Notes under the pieces: model-generated
Told to the model about the DNA's origin: nothing
Database searches by the model: none
The model's input: only the letters and a program-made list of their open reading frames with translations
Program-made: the position numbers and the translations under genes
In this document: one piece after another, positions 48,683 to 58,248 of the stretch
Layout of the letters: the number at the start of each line of letters is the position of its first letter
Numbering within the stretch: position 1 is the first letter of the stretch
Assembly (NCBI GenBank): GCA_018262985.1
Contig: JADFDI010000001.1
Location: 389,027-453,026, forward strand
Source of the DNA: Spirochaetota bacterium
GTDB taxonomy: Bacteria > Spirochaetota > Spirochaetia > Treponematales > UBA12059
DNA: 64,000 nucleotides
Direction: 5' to 3'

Positions 48683-49579
48683 TTATTCCGCGATGTCCAT
48701 GCTCGCCGACAGGCTCACGAGGCCCACCATGTCCGCCACGCCCAGCTTGCGGTACGCGCGCGCGAGCGTGTTGCGCACGGTCGACGTCGCGACGGCGGAA
48801 TCGGAGGCGATTTCCTTCACCGAGGCGCCGTCGAGGATGGCCAGGACGTAGCGGCGTTCCGACGCGGAAAGGCCGCGCTCGGCCAGCGAAAGGGTCGGCC
48901 TGGTCCCGTCCCGCAGTAGCGGCTTGCCCGTATGGCGCGCGCCCGAGACGATCAGCGCGAAGACGAAGATGGCCGCCAGGCTGAACGCGAGGAAGAACAC
49001 GAACAGCCAGTTGCTCACGGGAACCAGGCGTGACCGTTCGACGCCGAGCAGCGAGTACTCGAAGGCAAGCCTCGCGAGGGCGAACGCGGCGGACGCGCCG
49101 AGGAAGGCGTCGAACCACCCCAGGTGGCGGATCCGGCTGCGGTACGCCCTGTTCCGGATTATCGTGGGCACGAAGAGCAGGATGCTGCCCCCGGAGAGGA
49201 TCAGGGTACGGAGCTCGAGCATGCCGGGAAGAAGGAAATAGAAGGCGGCCGCGGCGACGACGCCCGTCGAGGCCACCCCGAGGTACCAGGCCAGCGGCGA
49301 GCCCGTGCCGAGCACGACGCGCGCGCCGCAGAGGAAGAGCGCGAAGCCCGCGACCGAGAACGCCACGCTGGCATAGCTCCAGGTTATCGCGGACTCAAGG
49401 GTCGGGTGGTTGACGGCCTCCGTCAGGCTGCCCGCGGCGATCAGGAAGAGGGAGGCCGCGAAGAAGCGCCAGCCGGCCTTCCTCGCGGCCGGAGACAGGG
49501 ACGCGATGACGATGACGCCGATGCCCAGCATGATGAAGCTTCCCAGTATGGCCGCCGTGGAGAAGTCGATGCGCCTCAC
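48683..49579 (-). CDS. Membrane-bound LuxR-type regulator (paralog 1)
   Basis: The product has 298 residues. Residues about 10-215 hold seven hydrophobic helices; residues about 230-295 form a LuxR/GerE helix-turn-helix (LSASERRYVLAILDGASVKEIASDSAVATSTVRNTLARAYRKLGVADMVGLV). A sensor with membrane helices directly fused to a DNA-binding domain implies one-component signalling at the membrane. It has the same length and layout as its neighbour at 49734, so the two arose by duplication. The ligand is unknown. Confidence 0.85.
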   Translation of the reverse strand: MRRIDFSTAAILGSFIMLGIGVIVIASLSPAARKAGWRFFAASLFLIAAGSLTEAVNHPTLESAITWSYASVAFSVAGFALFLCGARVVLGTGSPLAWYLGVASTGVVAAAAFYFLLPGMLELRTLILSGGSILLFVPTIIRNRAYRSRIRHLGWFDAFLGASAAFALARLAFEYSLLGVERSRLVPVSNWLFVFFLAFSLAAIFVFALIVSGARHTGKPLLRDGTRPTLSLAERGLSASERRYVLAILDGASVKEIASDSAVATSTVRNTLARAYRKLGVADMVGLVSLSASMDIAE

Positions 49580-49733
49580 GCCGTCGGCTCCGCCAGGTCA
49601 ATCACGATCATCCAAGCTTCCTTCTCCCGCGGGTCTCGAGGGCGATTTCGAGGATAGGTCGACCCTCGTCCCCGGTCAAGGACCGGGGCCCGGCGCGCGG
49701 GAAGCCGCGGGACCTGGGGCCGGAGGGTCTTGC

Positions 49734-50630
49734 TCAGGGCACGATCTCGTTCCGGCCGGCGAGGGCGACGAGGCCGATCATGTCCGACACGCCGAGCTTC
49801 CGGTAGGCGCGCGCCAGCGAATTGCGCACGGTGGAATCCGAGACCCCGGCCTCGGAGGCGATAGCCTTGATCGACTCGCCCGCGAGGATGGAGAGCACGT
49901 ACTGCCGCTCGGCCGGAGCGAGCCCCAGGTCGGAGAGCGAGATCCGCGGGCGCTCCTCCCCGCCGAGCGCGGGACGCCCGGATCTGCGCAGGGTGCCGAC
50001 TATCACGGTGAACACCGCGGCCGCCCCTATGCCCGAGGCCGAGAACGCGGCGAAGAGCCAGGCGTCGATGCCCGGATTGATCGGGACGCCGAGGACCAGG
50101 CCGCGGAGGGCGTGGAGCATGCGGCCCAGCGTGGCGAGCGAGGCGAAAATGAGCAGGTCGTCGTAGAGCCTCAAATAGCGGATGCGCGAATGATAGCGGA
50201 AATTCCTGGCGCAGGTCGGCAGGAACAGGGCCAGTACGCCCGAGGAAAAGGCGACGGTCAAGGCATGGGCGTAATCGCCCGAGCGGAGTCCCAAGGCCAG
50301 TACGGCGATGATCTCCGCCGCGGCGACGGCGAGGTACCACCAGGCGGGCGCGCCGGTGCCCAGGACCGCGTGCCCCGCTATGAAGAAGAGCGAGTAGGCG
50401 AGGATCGCCGACGCCGCGGCCGCGCTCGTCCAGTTCAGGGCATCGGCCGGCCCGGCATGCGCGAGGGCGTAGGCCGCCGTGTTGAAGGCGATCAGCGCCA
50501 GGCCGGGCAGCACCCAAGGCAGGGCGGCCTTCCGGGTCGCCGGATCGGCCGACCAGGCGAAGACCGCGCCGAGGGCGAAGAGGAGGAAGGCGCCCATGAC
50601 GATCACCGAAGGGAAGTCGAGGGCGTTCAT
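49734..50630 (-). CDS. Membrane-bound LuxR-type regulator (paralog 2)
   Basis: The product has 298 residues with about seven helices and a C-terminal LuxR HTH (LAPAERQYVLSILAGESIKAIASEAGVSDSTVRNSLARAYRKLGVSDMIGLV). It is closely similar to paralog 1 in the HTH and in the intracellular loop (RNFRYHSRIRYLRLYD versus RNRAYRSRIRHLGWFD). The membrane parts have diverged more, consistent with different inputs and related DNA targets. Paralog 1 follows 154 bp downstream on the same strand. Confidence 0.85.
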   Translation of the reverse strand: MNALDFPSVIVMGAFLLFALGAVFAWSADPATRKAALPWVLPGLALIAFNTAAYALAHAGPADALNWTSAAAASAILAYSLFFIAGHAVLGTGAPAWWYLAVAAAEIIAVLALGLRSGDYAHALTVAFSSGVLALFLPTCARNFRYHSRIRYLRLYDDLLIFASLATLGRMLHALRGLVLGVPINPGIDAWLFAAFSASGIGAAAVFTVIVGTLRRSGRPALGGEERPRISLSDLGLAPAERQYVLSILAGESIKAIASEAGVSDSTVRNSLARAYRKLGVSDMIGLVALAGRNEIVP

Positions 50631-52368: not shown

Positions 52369-52392
52369 CGCGTCCTTCCGGAGGAGCTTCCG

Positions 52393-54501
52393 ATGGCGCG
52401 GGACAACTGGATCATCGACGCGGACAATTTCAACATCTCGACCGGCAAGGACATGCTGCTCCTCAACCAGGAGATGATGGACTACCTCGAGAAGGACAAC
52501 TCCATCCAGTCCTTCGTCGTGGCCACCAAGGGCATCGGCAAGACCATGCTCCTCAAGATGAAGCGCGAGGCCATGGCCGGCTTCCAGATGATACCCGAGA
52601 GCGGCATCGACAAGTTCGCCTTCTCCGACAACCTGAGCCACGACTCGGTCGAGCTCTTCCGCGACCTGCACAACATCGAGTCGATCTGGTCCATCGCCAT
52701 CGTCATGGCCACCCTGCGCCGGCTCTCGTACGAGTTCGCGCCGGACGAGCTCAGCCACTTCCTCCAGGGGCTCTACCGCAAGCGCGGGGTCGGCTCGGTC
52801 TCGGAGTACTTCAGCCACCTGATCCACGCCGACCGCGACGACTACTTCCGCGCGAAGGCCGACCTCGAATCGGTGCTCGTGCCGGCCTACAAGCGCGCGG
52901 TGACGGCGCCGATCGCCATCTTCATCGACAACATCGACGAGTACTTCAACAAGCACCTCGACCCCGGCGCCGCCGAGAGCGTCGCGGGCGCGCTCGAGCC
53001 GGAGCTCTGGTACACCGCGCAGATGGGGCTCGTGCTCTCGTTCTTCAACCTGCACAAGTTCAACCACCACGTGAAGCTCTTCGCCTCGATCCGCAAGGAG
53101 GCGCTGGCGCGCTACCGGAAGGAGCTCGTGCTCTTCCAGCAGGTCGGCGAGCGCACCCTCGAGCTCCGCTACTCCAACCTCGAACTCGAGCGCATCTTCA
53201 TCAACAACCTCCGCCGCGAGCCCCGCGACCGCTTCGTCGACCCCTCCCGCATCGAAAAGGACCCGGTCGCCGCCTGGTTCGGCTTCCCGAGCATCAAGCA
53301 CAAGCAGGTCAAGTCCGACGAGGACCTCTTCCAGTACCTGGCGCGGCATACCCTCTCGCGCCCGCGCGACTTCATGCAGCTCGGCAAAGCCCTGTCGCGC
53401 CTCGCGCCCGAGGAGCGGAACCAGGAGTCGGTGCGCTCCGTGGTGCAGGAGGTGTCGGCGGACATCGTGGGCACCTACCTCTCGGAGGTGCGGCCCCACG
53501 TCGAGGCCATCGACATCCAGCGCGTCCTGCCCTTCATCGACACCAACGCGCTCGACCGCGATCGGCTCCGCGAGATCTGCCGCCAGTACAACGCCGTCGT
53601 CGTCGGCGGCAAGGCCGGCGCCGCCGTCTCGGACAGTCGCAACCTCTGGATACCCTGCGAGGCCGGCGAGTCCGACTGCGCGGGCTGCGAGGGTTGCGAC
53701 GTCTTCGGCATCCTCTACAAGCTCGGCTTCCTCGGCCACCTGATCGACGACGGATCGAAGTCCACCCGCATCCAGAAATTCTGCCTGCCGGGCGAGCGCA
53801 CCTTCGAGGGCGGCAACCTGCTGCCCGACTCCGCGCTCTACCTGATCCATCCCATCCTCAATTCGACCATCATGGAGCGGAACCGCGCCTACATCGGCAA
53901 CCGCAACAAGCGCAACATCGTCGGCAACGGCCTGCTCTGGTACCTCGAGGAAGAGCGCAGCACGCGCCGCAAGTACTGCGCCTTGAAGGCCGACGTCTGC
54001 GGCTTCTCCAGGATCATGGAGCAGGGCGCGAACCGCACGCTCCAGCTCAAGCAGAAGCTCGCCGAGCTGGCCACGGCGGAGAATCTCGGGCTCGAATCGG
54101 TCAGCTACTCCGAGGGCGACGCCGTCTCATGCCTCGAGCGGAACGCCGACCGCGCCGCGGAGGGCGCCTTCCGCCTCCTCGACGCCGTGCGCCGCCTCGG
54201 CCTCGAGGTGCGCGTCGCCCTCGACTGCGGGTTCATGACCGTGGCTGCCACGGGCGCCATGACCGGCACGCCCTTCCTGCATTCCGCCCGCGTCGAGCCC
54301 CTCGTCGAGCCCAACCAGATCTGGTGCACGGAAGCCTTCGCCAAGGAGCTCGCCCGCCTCGGCAGCCTCTACCGCTGCGTCGACCTGTCCGGGAATCCCC
54401 CGGCCGCGCTCGCCGCCCGCCGCGGCGCTTCAGGCTTCATCGTCAGCAAGGAGGGCCAGAGCGGCCTCGAACTGAAGCTGTTCAGGATCGTGAGGGACTA
54501 G
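52393..54501 (+). CDS. P-loop ATPase fused to a class III nucleotidyl-cyclase-like domain
   Basis: The product has 702 residues. Residues 41-51 (FVVATKGIGKT) form a Walker A, 174-185 (IAIFIDNIDEYF) a Walker B with two acidic residues, and 226-237 (HVKLFASIRKEA) a sensor-like strand, as in STAND/KAP-like ATPases. Cys422, Cys429, Cys432 and Cys435 form a possible metal knuckle. Residues about 528-660 resemble a class III adenylyl/guanylyl cyclase: ALKADVCGFSRIM with metal-site Asp534, SYSEGDAVSCLE with Asp576, RVALDCGF, and a final HSARVEP, where the usual Asn is replaced. No membrane segment is seen. The ribosome-binding site is GGAGGAG. Its stop overlaps that of the convergent SARP-type gene (CTAG). 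The function is unknown; ATP-driven control of a nucleotide-making or nucleotide-sensing domain is inference. Confidence 0.75.
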   Translation: MARDNWIIDADNFNISTGKDMLLLNQEMMDYLEKDNSIQSFVVATKGIGKTMLLKMKREAMAGFQMIPESGIDKFAFSDNLSHDSVELFRDLHNIESIWSIAIVMATLRRLSYEFAPDELSHFLQGLYRKRGVGSVSEYFSHLIHADRDDYFRAKADLESVLVPAYKRAVTAPIAIFIDNIDEYFNKHLDPGAAESVAGALEPELWYTAQMGLVLSFFNLHKFNHHVKLFASIRKEALARYRKELVLFQQVGERTLELRYSNLELERIFINNLRREPRDRFVDPSRIEKDPVAAWFGFPSIKHKQVKSDEDLFQYLARHTLSRPRDFMQLGKALSRLAPEERNQESVRSVVQEVSADIVGTYLSEVRPHVEAIDIQRVLPFIDTNALDRDRLREICRQYNAVVVGGKAGAAVSDSRNLWIPCEAGESDCAGCEGCDVFGILYKLGFLGHLIDDGSKSTRIQKFCLPGERTFEGGNLLPDSALYLIHPILNSTIMERNRAYIGNRNKRNIVGNGLLWYLEEERSTRRKYCALKADVCGFSRIMEQGANRTLQLKQKLAELATAENLGLESVSYSEGDAVSCLERNADRAAEGAFRLLDAVRRLGLEVRVALDCGFMTVAATGAMTGTPFLHSARVEPLVEPNQIWCTEAFAKELARLGSLYRCVDLSGNPPAALAARRGASGFIVSKEGQSGLELKLFRIVRD

Positions 54502-57500
54502 GCCCGGGACGCCGCCGCCGCCCGGAACGCGACGGAAGGGTCGCTCCCGCGCCGTTCGGCGCGACTCGGGCGACCGGCGGGCCCGTTGCCCGGGGCGACG
54601 AGCTCCGGTAGCTCCGCGTAGCGGATCCGCGAGCCGCGGAGCCATTCGTCCGAGGAACGCGCGGCGGCTTCGGCGAGATGGCGATCGATCCGGGGTTGCC
54701 CGGACGGCTTCGCGTCCGGCGCTTCGGTCGGCCCCGCCGCGCCCGGCGGAGCGCCCGAGGCGATCCAGGCCGTCTGGGCGATGGTTTCGAGGCCGAGCTC
54801 GCGGCGCAGGGCCCCGAACGCGCCGAGGAGCAGGTCCGCGCCGCGCCGGTCGCCGGCCAGGGCGCGGGCGACGCCCAGCTCGCCGAGGACGAAGACCGCG
54901 TCGCTCCGCGAGCCTATCGAAACGAAAAGCGAGAGCGAGTCGCGGAGCGTGACCTCGGCCTCGTCCGCGCGGCCCGAGAGCGCGGCGTTCATGCCGAGCC
55001 CCTCGAGCGTCCAGGCTTTGAGGAAGGAATCGCCGAGGGCGTCGAAACCGTCGAGGGCGCGCTCGTAGCAAGGCGCCGCTTCCCTGAAGTCGCCGCGGGT
55101 CCTCAGAAGATCGCCGAGCGCCTCGAAGGCGTGCGACTCGATCCATGGATCCTCCGCTTCCCGCGCCAGCCGGACCGCCTCCTCGAGGCCGAGGCGCTGC
55201 CGCTCGTCGCCCGGGCTGCCTCCCGTCGTCCCCAGGTCCCAGACCAGGGCCATCGCGAGCAGCCCCGGATCGCCGAGACCGCGGGCGAGCCTGACGGCGC
55301 GTCGGAGTCGCCCGTCGCCGTTCGCGCGGTCGCCGAGCCAGCGCTCGGCCACGCCGAGGTCGGCCAGGCAACGGACCAGGTCGAGCGAGGCCGGACCGGC
55401 CTCGAGGAGCGCGAGCGCCTCGAGGTAAAAGCCCCGCGCCTCGCGCCAGGCTCCCTGCGTGAAGCGGAGCCAGCCGAGGGCCCTCAGGCAGGCGCCGCGC
55501 AGCGGGCCCGGAGCCTCCCGACCGGCGGCGAGGGCCTTTTCGAGCGAGCGCTGGCCCGAGGCGAATTGCCCCGACCGATACCAGTACCACTCGAGGGCGG
55601 CGCAGAGTCGCAGCGCGTCGTCCGACCCGTCCCGCCCGGCCAGGAAGTCCAGCGCCGCTTCGAAGTTCGCCTCCTCCGGCACGAGCGCGGCGAGGGCCGC
55701 GGTCTGGCAGGGGCCTCGAAGGGCCGAGCTTCCCCGTTCGGCGCGCTCGAGGAAATGCAGGGCGTGCCGACGCCTGATTTCCGGAGCGTCCGGTCGCGCC
55801 TCGAAGAGCTCCAGCGCGAAGTCGCGGATCGATTCGAGAAAGGCGAGGCGTCCTTTCGTCCCCGCGCGCGATTTCCGGAGCAGGTTGGCGGCAACGAGGA
55901 TCTCCAGATCGGCCAGCGCGTCGCCGGCCCCCGGGCGAACCGCCTCCGCCGCTTCCACGTCGAAGCCGTCGGGGAAGACCGCGAGCGCGGAGAACAGCGC
56001 TCGCGCGGAGGGCGGAAGCAGCTCGTGGCTCCAGGCGATGACGGCGCGCAGGCTGCGGTGCCGCGGTGGGCGCGTCCTGCCCGCGGCGTCGGCAAGATCG
56101 AGCTTGCGGTCCATGCGGGCGAGCAGCTCGGCGGGCTCGAGTACGCCCAAGGCGGCCGCCGCGAGCTCCAGGGCCAGGGGCAAGCCGTCGAGCCTGGCGC
56201 ATAGCCGCGCGCAGTCCTCCAGGCCCGGCCCTTCCACGAAGCCGCCCGAGGCGACCTTTTCCGCCCGGAGGAGGAAGAGCTCGAGCGCCGGCCAGGCCGT
56301 TCTCGACGCGGATCGGAGGGACGCTCCTTCGGGCGGGGTCGCGAGGGGTTCGAGCGCGTGGTTCCGTTCCCCGCCCAGGCCGAGGGCGACGCGGCTCGTG
56401 CAGAGCAGGGTGAGTCGCGCGGATGCCGCGAGGAGCCAGGCCACCGCGCGCGCGGCGTCCGGCATTTGTTCGAGGTTGTCGAGGACGACGAGGCTCCGCC
56501 CCCTTCCGAGCCTCGCCTCGATCCGGTCCGACAGGGCGGCGGGCGATTCCTCCCGCTCGCCGAGGCCGATGGAAGCCGCCACGGCGTAGGGCAGACGATC
56601 CTTGTCCCGCAGGGCGGAAAGATCGACGAACCAGGCGCCTCCGGGGAAGGCTCCGCGCTCCAGCCGGAGCAAGGCCCTGGCCACGCTAGTCTTGCCGACG
56701 CCGCCGGGGCCGGTGATCGAATGGAGCCGATCCGCGCCCGAGCGAAGCGCCGCGCCGATCGCGGCCAGCTCCCGTTCCCGACCGACAAGCCGATGCTCCG
56801 GATCCTCCGGCGGGGAGTCCTCGCCCGAGGGTTCGATGAGTATCTTCGTGCTCTCCGCCGGCTCCCGTCCCAGCTCCTCGCGAACCAGCGCTTCCCAGGT
56901 CCGGTAGCGTTCGCGGGCCTGGTCTTCGTTGCCGAGTTCGAGGAGAACGCCGATCTGGAACCTGCGGGCTTCTTCGTCGAAGGGGGCGGCGTTGATCCAG
57001 TCCGACGCGAGCGCCGCGGCCTCGCGCGTCCGCGCGGTTCCCGCGAAACGCAGGGCCAGCCGCCTCAGCGCGGACACCCGGGCATCACGGAGCCGTCCCG
57101 CCTTCTCGAACTGCCAGTCGTCGAAGCCGCGGCTGTCGGGGAGGAAAAATCCTTCCATGAATCCCCCGCGCCACAAGCGTAGGGCCGCCGTGAGCGAGGA
57201 TTCGCAACGCGCGCAGGCCAGCTCGGGGACGTGGCACTCGCAAGGACCGACCAGGCCGAGGAACTCCGCGGCGTCGATCCGGAGCGCTCCCGCGTCGAGC
57301 GAAACCTGGTCCCCGGCCGTGCGGAAGAGTTCCTGCCCGAGCTCGTGCTCGAGCTCGAAGAGGGAGCGGCGCAGGTTCGATCGAGCGCGGACCTGGTCGC
57401 GCTCGGGCCAGAGGAAGGCGGACAGGCTGTCCCGGCCGTGCATGCCGGGTTCGAGCGCCAGGTAGGCGAGCAGCGCGAAGGACTTGCGCCGCGTGAACAG

Positions 57501-57599
57501 GACTGGTTCGCCAGCGCGGCTCAGCAGGGGCACGCCGAGCAGGGCCAGGGAAAGCGCCGCCGGATCCCGGACTCCGGCTTTCCCGTCGCTTTTTTCCAT
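54498..57599 (-). CDS. AfsR/SARP-type regulator: wHTH-BTAD, NB-ARC ATPase, TPR
   Basis: The product has 1033 residues. Residues about 15-105 are an OmpR-like winged helix (LALLGVPLLSRAGEPVLFTRRKSFALLAYLALEP), and 110-255 a BTAD domain. The STAND ATPase has Walker A GPGGVGKT (297-304) and Walker B VVLDNLEQM (371-379). The C-terminal 500 residues are TPR-like. This is the AfsR/GutR type of one-component activator, common in actinomycetes and less familiar in spirochaetes. The start at 57599 is fixed by its promoter. Neighbouring direct repeats suggest autocontrol and control of the divergent lipoprotein gene. Confidence 0.88.
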   Translation of the reverse strand: MEKSDGKAGVRDPAALSLALLGVPLLSRAGEPVLFTRRKSFALLAYLALEPGMHGRDSLSAFLWPERDQVRARSNLRRSLFELEHELGQELFRTAGDQVSLDAGALRIDAAEFLGLVGPCECHVPELACARCESSLTAALRLWRGGFMEGFFLPDSRGFDDWQFEKAGRLRDARVSALRRLALRFAGTARTREAAALASDWINAAPFDEEARRFQIGVLLELGNEDQARERYRTWEALVREELGREPAESTKILIEPSGEDSPPEDPEHRLVGRERELAAIGAALRSGADRLHSITGPGGVGKTSVARALLRLERGAFPGGAWFVDLSALRDKDRLPYAVAASIGLGEREESPAALSDRIEARLGRGRSLVVLDNLEQMPDAARAVAWLLAASARLTLLCTSRVALGLGGERNHALEPLATPPEGASLRSASRTAWPALELFLLRAEKVASGGFVEGPGLEDCARLCARLDGLPLALELAAAALGVLEPAELLARMDRKLDLADAAGRTRPPRHRSLRAVIAWSHELLPPSARALFSALAVFPDGFDVEAAEAVRPGAGDALADLEILVAANLLRKSRAGTKGRLAFLESIRDFALELFEARPDAPEIRRRHALHFLERAERGSSALRGPCQTAALAALVPEEANFEAALDFLAGRDGSDDALRLCAALEWYWYRSGQFASGQRSLEKALAAGREAPGPLRGACLRALGWLRFTQGAWREARGFYLEALALLEAGPASLDLVRCLADLGVAERWLGDRANGDGRLRRAVRLARGLGDPGLLAMALVWDLGTTGGSPGDERQRLGLEEAVRLAREAEDPWIESHAFEALGDLLRTRGDFREAAPCYERALDGFDALGDSFLKAWTLEGLGMNAALSGRADEAEVTLRDSLSLFVSIGSRSDAVFVLGELGVARALAGDRRGADLLLGAFGALRRELGLETIAQTAWIASGAPPGAAGPTEAPDAKPSGQPRIDRHLAEAAARSSDEWLRGSRIRYAELPELVAPGNGPAGRPSRAERRGSDPSVAFRAAAASRA

Positions 57600-57608
57600 G
57601 TTACGGCG

Positions 57609-57637
57609 AGTATTCGCCAGCCGCGGGCCGTTTGCAA
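57609..57637 (-). promoter_or_regulatory. Near-leaderless promoter of the SARP-type gene
   Basis: On the minus strand: TTGCAA (57637-57632), 17 bp spacer, AATACT (57614-57609), nine bases to the ATG at 57599. Confidence 0.6.
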
Positions 57638-57650
57638 CGCTCCTGCAACG
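57633..57650 (+). promoter_or_regulatory. Heptamer direct repeat typical of SARP binding sites
   Basis: TGCAACG (57633-57639), 4-bp spacer CTCC, TGCAACG (57644-57650). The 11-bp period is the spacing described for SARP-family sites. It overlaps the -35 of the SARP-type gene and lies upstream of the lipoprotein gene at 57697. Confidence 0.55.
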
Positions 57651-57696
57651 CCCTCGCGCGAGGATTGGGATATCTGGAATCCAGAGAGGAGGCACC

Positions 57697-58248
57697 ATGT
57701 ATCGGAAAGTTCGCGGAACGGGCCTGGCGGCCCTCGTCGTCCTCGCGTTCGTCGCGGCCGGATGCGCCGGCGGCCCCGAGATCCTCGGCGAAGCCGGAGT
57801 CCTGGCCGGCACCTGGCGCGGAGGCTCGGCCTACGAGCCCGGCGCGGATCCGGAGACCGGCCTCGGAGTCCGCTACCTGCTCAGCCTGACGCCCCTGGGC
57901 GGCGGGCGCTTCGGCGCGACCTGGGAAGGCTCCTACGTCCTGCCCGAAGGCTACGCGCGGATGACCCGCTACAGCGGTGAACTGGCGAAGCGCGCGGACG
58001 GCGGCTACGAGGTCCTCGGTATCGCCTTTTTCAACAGCTCGGCGGTCTTCCCCCCCGACACGCTCCCGCAGGTGTGGGCCATCCACGGCAAGGCCGAGCT
58101 GCTCGGCGACGGCCGCCTGAGGATCACCTACGACGGCTTCGAGGTCCACGATTGGAATTCCCGTCCCTTCGTCGATCCGCCGCTGTTCCGGCCCGTCCCG
58201 ACGCCCATCGTCGAGATCTACCGCCGCGTCGAGTTCGGCGGGAAGTAA
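57697..58248 (+). CDS. Small lipoprotein, divergent from the SARP-type regulator
   Basis: The product has 183 residues. The signal ends VAAGC with Cys23. The mature part (GTWRGGSAYEPGADPETGLGVRYLLSLTPLGGGRFGATWEGSYVLPEG) is beta-rich and lipocalin/META-like in pattern, with no named family recognised. An AGAGGAGG ribosome-binding site sets the ATG at 57697; the longer frame upstream runs through the SARP-type gene. It is the probable target of that regulator, on position and operator evidence. Confidence 0.75.
   Translation: MYRKVRGTGLAALVVLAFVAAGCAGGPEILGEAGVLAGTWRGGSAYEPGADPETGLGVRYLLSLTPLGGGRFGATWEGSYVLPEGYARMTRYSGELAKRADGGYEVLGIAFFNSSAVFPPDTLPQVWAIHGKAELLGDGRLRITYDGFEVHDWNSRPFVDPPLFRPVPTPIVEIYRRVEFGGK

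Follow-up and report, generated by a model that had tools for sequence, protein, structure and literature searches.

NTP-dependent conflict systems exchange cNMP-cyclase domains with TIR, caspase and other domains, and some of the cyclase domains that they carry have been judged inactive (PMC7159879, PMC8195603). EaPycC holds the base-pocket residues F100, R142 and Q144 beside its catalytic D102 and D146, where they set its choice of a pyrimidine (PMC11224242). The usual asparagine of class III cyclases is naturally absent from Rv1900c, which has His in its place, is active and is said to use both ATP and GTP, and from the DUF2652 group, which has Ile there and retains a cyclase-type site (PMC4886424).

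We compare with these systems a single gene from the window, a 64,000-nucleotide stretch of spirochaete DNA, for which an original prediction had proposed a P-loop ATPase joined to a class III cyclase-like domain. The gene occupies positions 52393..54501 (it and all of its features given below lie on the + strand): its open reading frame runs from an ATG at 52393 to a stop codon at 54499–54501 and encodes 702 amino acids, with a ribosome-binding-like site, GGAGGAG (52380..52386), 6 bases upstream of the start. Full-length copies of the fusion occur in a second species of the genus (G002, 96% identity) and in a third (G001, 84%), and a search among 58 relatives placed close copies in this genus alone. 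Silent changes exceed replacements in both parts of the gene, which are thus under purifying selection: dN/dS for the whole fusion is about 0.11 against G002 and 0.24 against G001, with corresponding values of 0.08 and 0.19 for the ATPase and of 0.17 and 0.37 for the cyclase domain, the latter about twice those of the ATPase. The open reading frame is a real gene. Searched as a single sequence, the protein has no Pfam match, and no PADLOC model matches it; we also considered a phage or viral origin and rejected it, the fusion having no match in viral contigs or phage records.

The ATPase part and its cysteine cluster

The N-terminal part of the protein (residues 1–500; 52393..53892) is matched by the NCBIfam model ATPase_Sll1717 (NF047389) over residues 31–490 (E 1.3e-19, 70.7 bits) and along nearly the whole profile (23–451 of 454). 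The curated cut-off of this model is 75 bits, below which the window protein falls, so that it is not filed as a member; a cyclase-bearing homologue from a proteobacterial metagenome-assembled genome (MAG), P0006, passes with 86.3 bits. By its sequence, then, the window ATPase appears to be a borderline relative of the Sll1717 family. It has in common with that family the Walker A and B, Arg–Glu and RPRD motifs, whereas the model is silent on any cyclase partner. Walker A (ATKGIGKT, residues 44–51; 52522..52545) is kept in TIR-, SEFIR- and cyclase-bearing homologues alike. In our alignment A3, invariant residues mark Walker B (IAIFIDNIDE, residues 174–183; 52912..52941; D179, D182 and E183), a SIRKEA motif (residues 232–237; 53086..53103), whose Arg234 and Glu236 possibly serve as a sensor or finger, and an RHTLSRPRD motif (residues 318–326; 53344..53370; R318, H319, T320, P324 and R325). 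A search of PDB sequences with the ATPase profile gave no significant match, as to STAND features, relatives of the ATPase gave weak AAA_16 matches, and the name Sll1717 was not found in the literature searched.

Within the ATPase C-terminal part lies an insert with a C-x6-C-x2-C-x2-C motif (residues 422–435; 53656..53697), possibly a zinc knuckle. The prediction had placed this motif between the two domains; the motif is present, its interdomain position is not borne out, as it falls inside the span matched by NF047389, in a region where the structural model has a pLDDT mostly below 50. The cluster is kept in the genus, but P0006 has none of it and P0012, the homologue from an acidobacterial MAG, retains a single Cys; we therefore reject it as a conserved interdomain linker or hinge. 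Two further relatives, P0002 and P0007, have different Cys patterns close to its location.

The cyclase-like domain and its active site

In a single-sequence search the C-terminal domain (residues 515–702; 53935..54498) does not reach the gathering score of Pfam PF00211. A profile built from the five ATPase-fused domains (A4), compared with a class III cyclase profile, gives an hhalign probability of 98.6% (E 9e-16) and, run against PDB sequences, finds 3mr7 (E 1.4e-13), Rv1900c (2.3e-8) and Rv1264 (3.2e-8). The AlphaFold2 model of residues 515–702 (pLDDT 85.6) superimposes on 1ybu (Rv1900c) with a Z score of 21.2 and an rmsd of 1.9 Å over 159 residues, and the remaining structure matches listed are class III cyclases; a PycC chain is absent among the best 50 structure matches listed, which excludes nothing. 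With the full-length model (pLDDT 71.9), Foldseek likewise puts class III cyclases first. The domain is thus almost certainly homologous to class III cyclases, and the proposed joining of a P-loop ATPase to a cyclase-like domain holds on both sides, by the NF047389 match and by a fold prediction that falls squarely within the cyclase fold. Rv1900c (LipJ) shares with it the fold, both metal-site Asp residues, the transition-state Arg and the absence of the Asn, but joins its catalytic domain to an alpha/beta hydrolase, whereas the window domain stands C-terminal to a P-loop ATPase.

Both metal-site aspartates are kept, as had been predicted: Asp534, in Lys532-Ala533-Asp534 (53986..53994), and Asp576, in an SEGD motif (54118..54120). 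Together with the retained transition-state Arg633 (54289..54291) they are invariant across the five fusions, with domain identity down to 24%, and none of the five fused domains lacks both aspartates. The expected transition-state Asn is replaced by Leu629 (54277..54279), again in accord with the prediction, and by Leu or Arg across the fusions. The purine-selecting Lys, four residues before the second metal Asp (D-4), is Tyr572 in the window protein and Tyr, His, Val or Ile across the fusions; its Asp partner, as we read the sequence, is absent from the window protein. Set against class III cyclases at large, the window domain lies below Pfam detection, is without the purine-selecting Lys and Asp, and has a distinctive residue in Lys532: two residues before the first metal Asp (D-2), a position usually occupied by Phe, Lys is present in all five ATPase-fused domains and in none of 21 other class III-type domains (seven reference domains and 14 from the window genome). 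Judging from spacing, we infer that the window base-pocket positions correspond to those of PycC. With the purine-selecting Lys and Asp and the Asn gone, and with Lys532, specific to this lineage, at the base pocket, the substrate used or the product made may be something other than plain cAMP; a non-canonical product is a tentative proposal, and one on which we would not yet rely.

The loss of the Asn and of both purine-selecting residues also speaks for a pseudoenzyme, the main rival reading, in which the cyclase domain binds nucleotide and metal or merely dimerises, regulating the ATPase or sensing nucleotide pools, and the ATPase is the working part. The faster evolution of the cyclase domain points the same way, and for conflict systems, dead cNMP-cyclase domains have been reported in the vWA components (PMC7159879). 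An enzyme that has lost only the Asn is not dead for that reason, however, because Rv1900c and the DUF2652 group are also without it—the former active, the latter with a cyclase-type site (PMC4886424)—and the metal Asp pair, the Arg and the fusion-specific Lys have stayed invariant across very diverged fusions. We regard a pseudoenzyme as rather unlikely, and catalytic activity of the domain, as far as its residues indicate, as slightly the better bet.

A second rival is an ordinary adenylate/guanylate cyclase of broad specificity, for which the ATPase would be one more regulatory domain and whose cAMP or cGMP would feed the cNMP network of the host. The window genome (G000, 3.4 Mb) is well supplied for this, with at least 14 Guanylate_cyc and at least 15 cNMP-binding domains, and Rv1900c, whose fold comes closest to that of the window domain, is said to accept both ATP and GTP although it has no Asn (PMC4886424). 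Yet the fused cyclase domains form a clade of their own, apart from all 14 genomic cyclases (support 98/96), and they have lost the purine-selecting Lys, which is retained in 12 of the 14. This topology speaks against a recent origin of the domain from another cyclase of the same genome, and repeated independent capture is not supported either, as the fused domains group together, with the reservation that support in the ATPase tree is only moderate and that P0013, on a long branch, nests inside.

Relatives and the exchangeable C-terminal slot

Scanning genome contigs with a five-sequence alignment gave eight loci. ATPase–cyclase fusions occur in three lineages: the spirochaete genus, the proteobacterial MAG, whose P0006 has the same domain order at full length (32% identity over residues 6–699), and the acidobacterial MAG with P0012. 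In other relatives the ATPase is followed by a different domain: a C-terminal TIR in P0007 of Acidobacteriota (TIR_2, 1.2e-25) and, after a middle region, in P0008 (9.3e-17) and P0009 (1.4e-12) of Bacteroidota, and a C-terminal SEFIR in P0002, from the Butyrivibrio plasmid pCY186 (PF08357, 1.2e-6; PADLOC bSEFIR, 2.2e-27). The long variant P0013, from a MAG of an acidobacterial sample, is followed directly downstream by a SIR2_2–protein kinase gene, P0014. That locus (L073:3138-8828), a long Sll1717-like ATPase gene with a SIR2_2–protein kinase fusion gene, has the look of a defence unit made up of two genes. Strong relatives are scarce, being found in 2 of 392 Spirochaetota genomes and in 1 of 295 genomes in the class of a Winogradskyella homologue; relatives occur in 3 of 247 genomes in the phylum of the acidobacterial homologue, and plasmid copies of the family in two records. 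Members of the family are few, scattered in distribution and in part carried on plasmids.

From these architectures we consider it very probable that the C-terminal slot of the ATPase is exchangeable among cyclase, TIR and SEFIR domains. The presence of TIR or SEFIR in this slot among the relatives lends indirect support to the earlier guess that the protein is a defence or stress switch, and we judge such a role somewhat probable. That TIR or SEFIR otherwise fills the slot also weighs against a pseudoenzyme, and it weighs against an ordinary cyclase in that these partners are not the usual regulators of cyclases. One further reading takes the exchange literally: the cyclase domain, occupying the TIR/SEFIR slot, might be a direct toxic effector in the manner of TIR NADases, exhausting for example the NTP pool with no messenger involved, and no receptor gene was found nearby. 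No sequence feature, however, points to hydrolysis, we know of no protein of the class III cyclase fold that acts by depletion, and we consider such an effector highly improbable.

Three loci from the phylum search (L005–L007) encode ordinary cyclases or a P-type ATPase, not whole-protein relatives, and most Sll1717 matches in the order are far weaker or have no cyclase. Two other Sll1717 ATPases of the order (L011 and L012) lie clearly above the cut-off, with N-terminal domains in which we see, by eye, a resemblance to TIR or deoxyribosyltransferase domains. In a related spirochaete MAG (L043:4999-6134), a gene in pieces, with no cyclase part and a short internal repeated stretch, adjoins an S1-protein gene resembling that beside the window gene; this broken copy may reflect decay or mis-assembly.

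The neighbours of the fusion gene are a divergent MFS transporter, a convergent BTAD/NB-ARC regulator, two GerE-type regulators, a TetR regulator, a Y1-type transposase protein and the S1 protein. The BTAD, NB-ARC and TPR regulator, on the opposite strand (54498–57812), overlaps the end of the fusion gene by 4 bases, and the flanking MFS and BTAD genes are identical in kind in G002. The two GerE-type genes (48683–50630), adjacent paralogues, may encode membrane-bound regulators: each protein has a GerE helix-turn-helix at its C-terminus and a hydrophobic N-terminal half. In the nine neighbours scanned there is no gene for a cNMP receptor or cNMP-binding effector (TM or TIR) and none for vWA, MoxR or VMAP, and no defence island was found among the neighbours. 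A setting amid transporters and regulators that recurs in a second species would suit an ordinary broad-specificity cyclase; weighed with the separate clade and with the partners of the ATPase, that reading strikes us as distinctly improbable.

A possible switch and its known counterparts

How might such a protein work? We give about even weight to a single-gene, immune-type molecular switch in which the ATPase assembles the cyclase domains. The Sll1717-like ATPase would bind a trigger and oligomerise with ATP, a model that we borrow by analogy from STAND and TIR systems; oligomerisation would pair the C-terminal cyclase domains and, because class III cyclases function as dimers, switch them on. 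Since Asp534, Asp576 and Arg633 are kept, the paired domains would then carry out a metal-dependent reaction on an NTP, and its product would be read by receptors encoded at other loci of the genome. Counting against this switch are the missing defence island, adjacent cNMP receptor and PADLOC model, together with the loss of the Asn and both purine-selecting residues and the roughly twofold higher dN/dS of the cyclase domain. In its most specific form the proposal is speculative, and we think it unlikely to be right in every part: a single protein would serve as an immune switch of a new class, its Sll1717-type ATPase assembling and activating a re-tooled cyclase whose messenger is neither cAMP nor cGMP, with the base selected by Lys532, and it would be the counterpart to TIR signalling on the same scaffold.

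A single ATPase scaffold whose slot holds TIR, SEFIR or a cyclase would place NAD-type and cNMP-type signalling under one shared trigger mechanism. The small set of fusions, with its unusual active site, is a place to seek a new nucleotide messenger and, if the cyclase domain is active, would allow trigger, assembly and product to be studied together in a system of one gene.

Among described systems, the NTP-dependent conflict systems come close, in that a cNMP-cyclase-type domain sits where further members have a signalling domain of another kind; the window protein differs in belonging to another ATPase family, in being encoded by one gene and in having no MoxR, vWA or VMAP nearby. Two proteins seen in our searches, both of conflict type, fit the theme of cyclase modules in such systems: P0011 (L008:952-3162) combines Guanylate_cyc, CHAT and NB-ARC, with Asp replacing the cyclase Asn, and P0015 (L061:88-2073) joins TPR-S to Guanylate_cyc, with Ser in that place. 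Because exchange of cyclase modules with TIR and caspase has already been described with other ATPases (PMC7159879, PMC8195603), the fusion is not a categorically new system: of the 'undescribed system' first proposed, the two-domain architecture stands, and the word 'undescribed' claims too much in this one respect. With Pycsar it shares a class III-type cyclase in a putatively immune context and a D-2 position that, in PycC, matters for substrate choice (PMC11224242), but it is ATPase-fused, has no adjacent receptor effector and bears Lys at D-2, not Tyr or Phe. TIR and SEFIR defence proteins (PADLOC bSEFIR and TIR models) offer a further parallel, since a homologous ATPase carries these domains C-terminally, where the window protein instead holds a cyclase-like domain.
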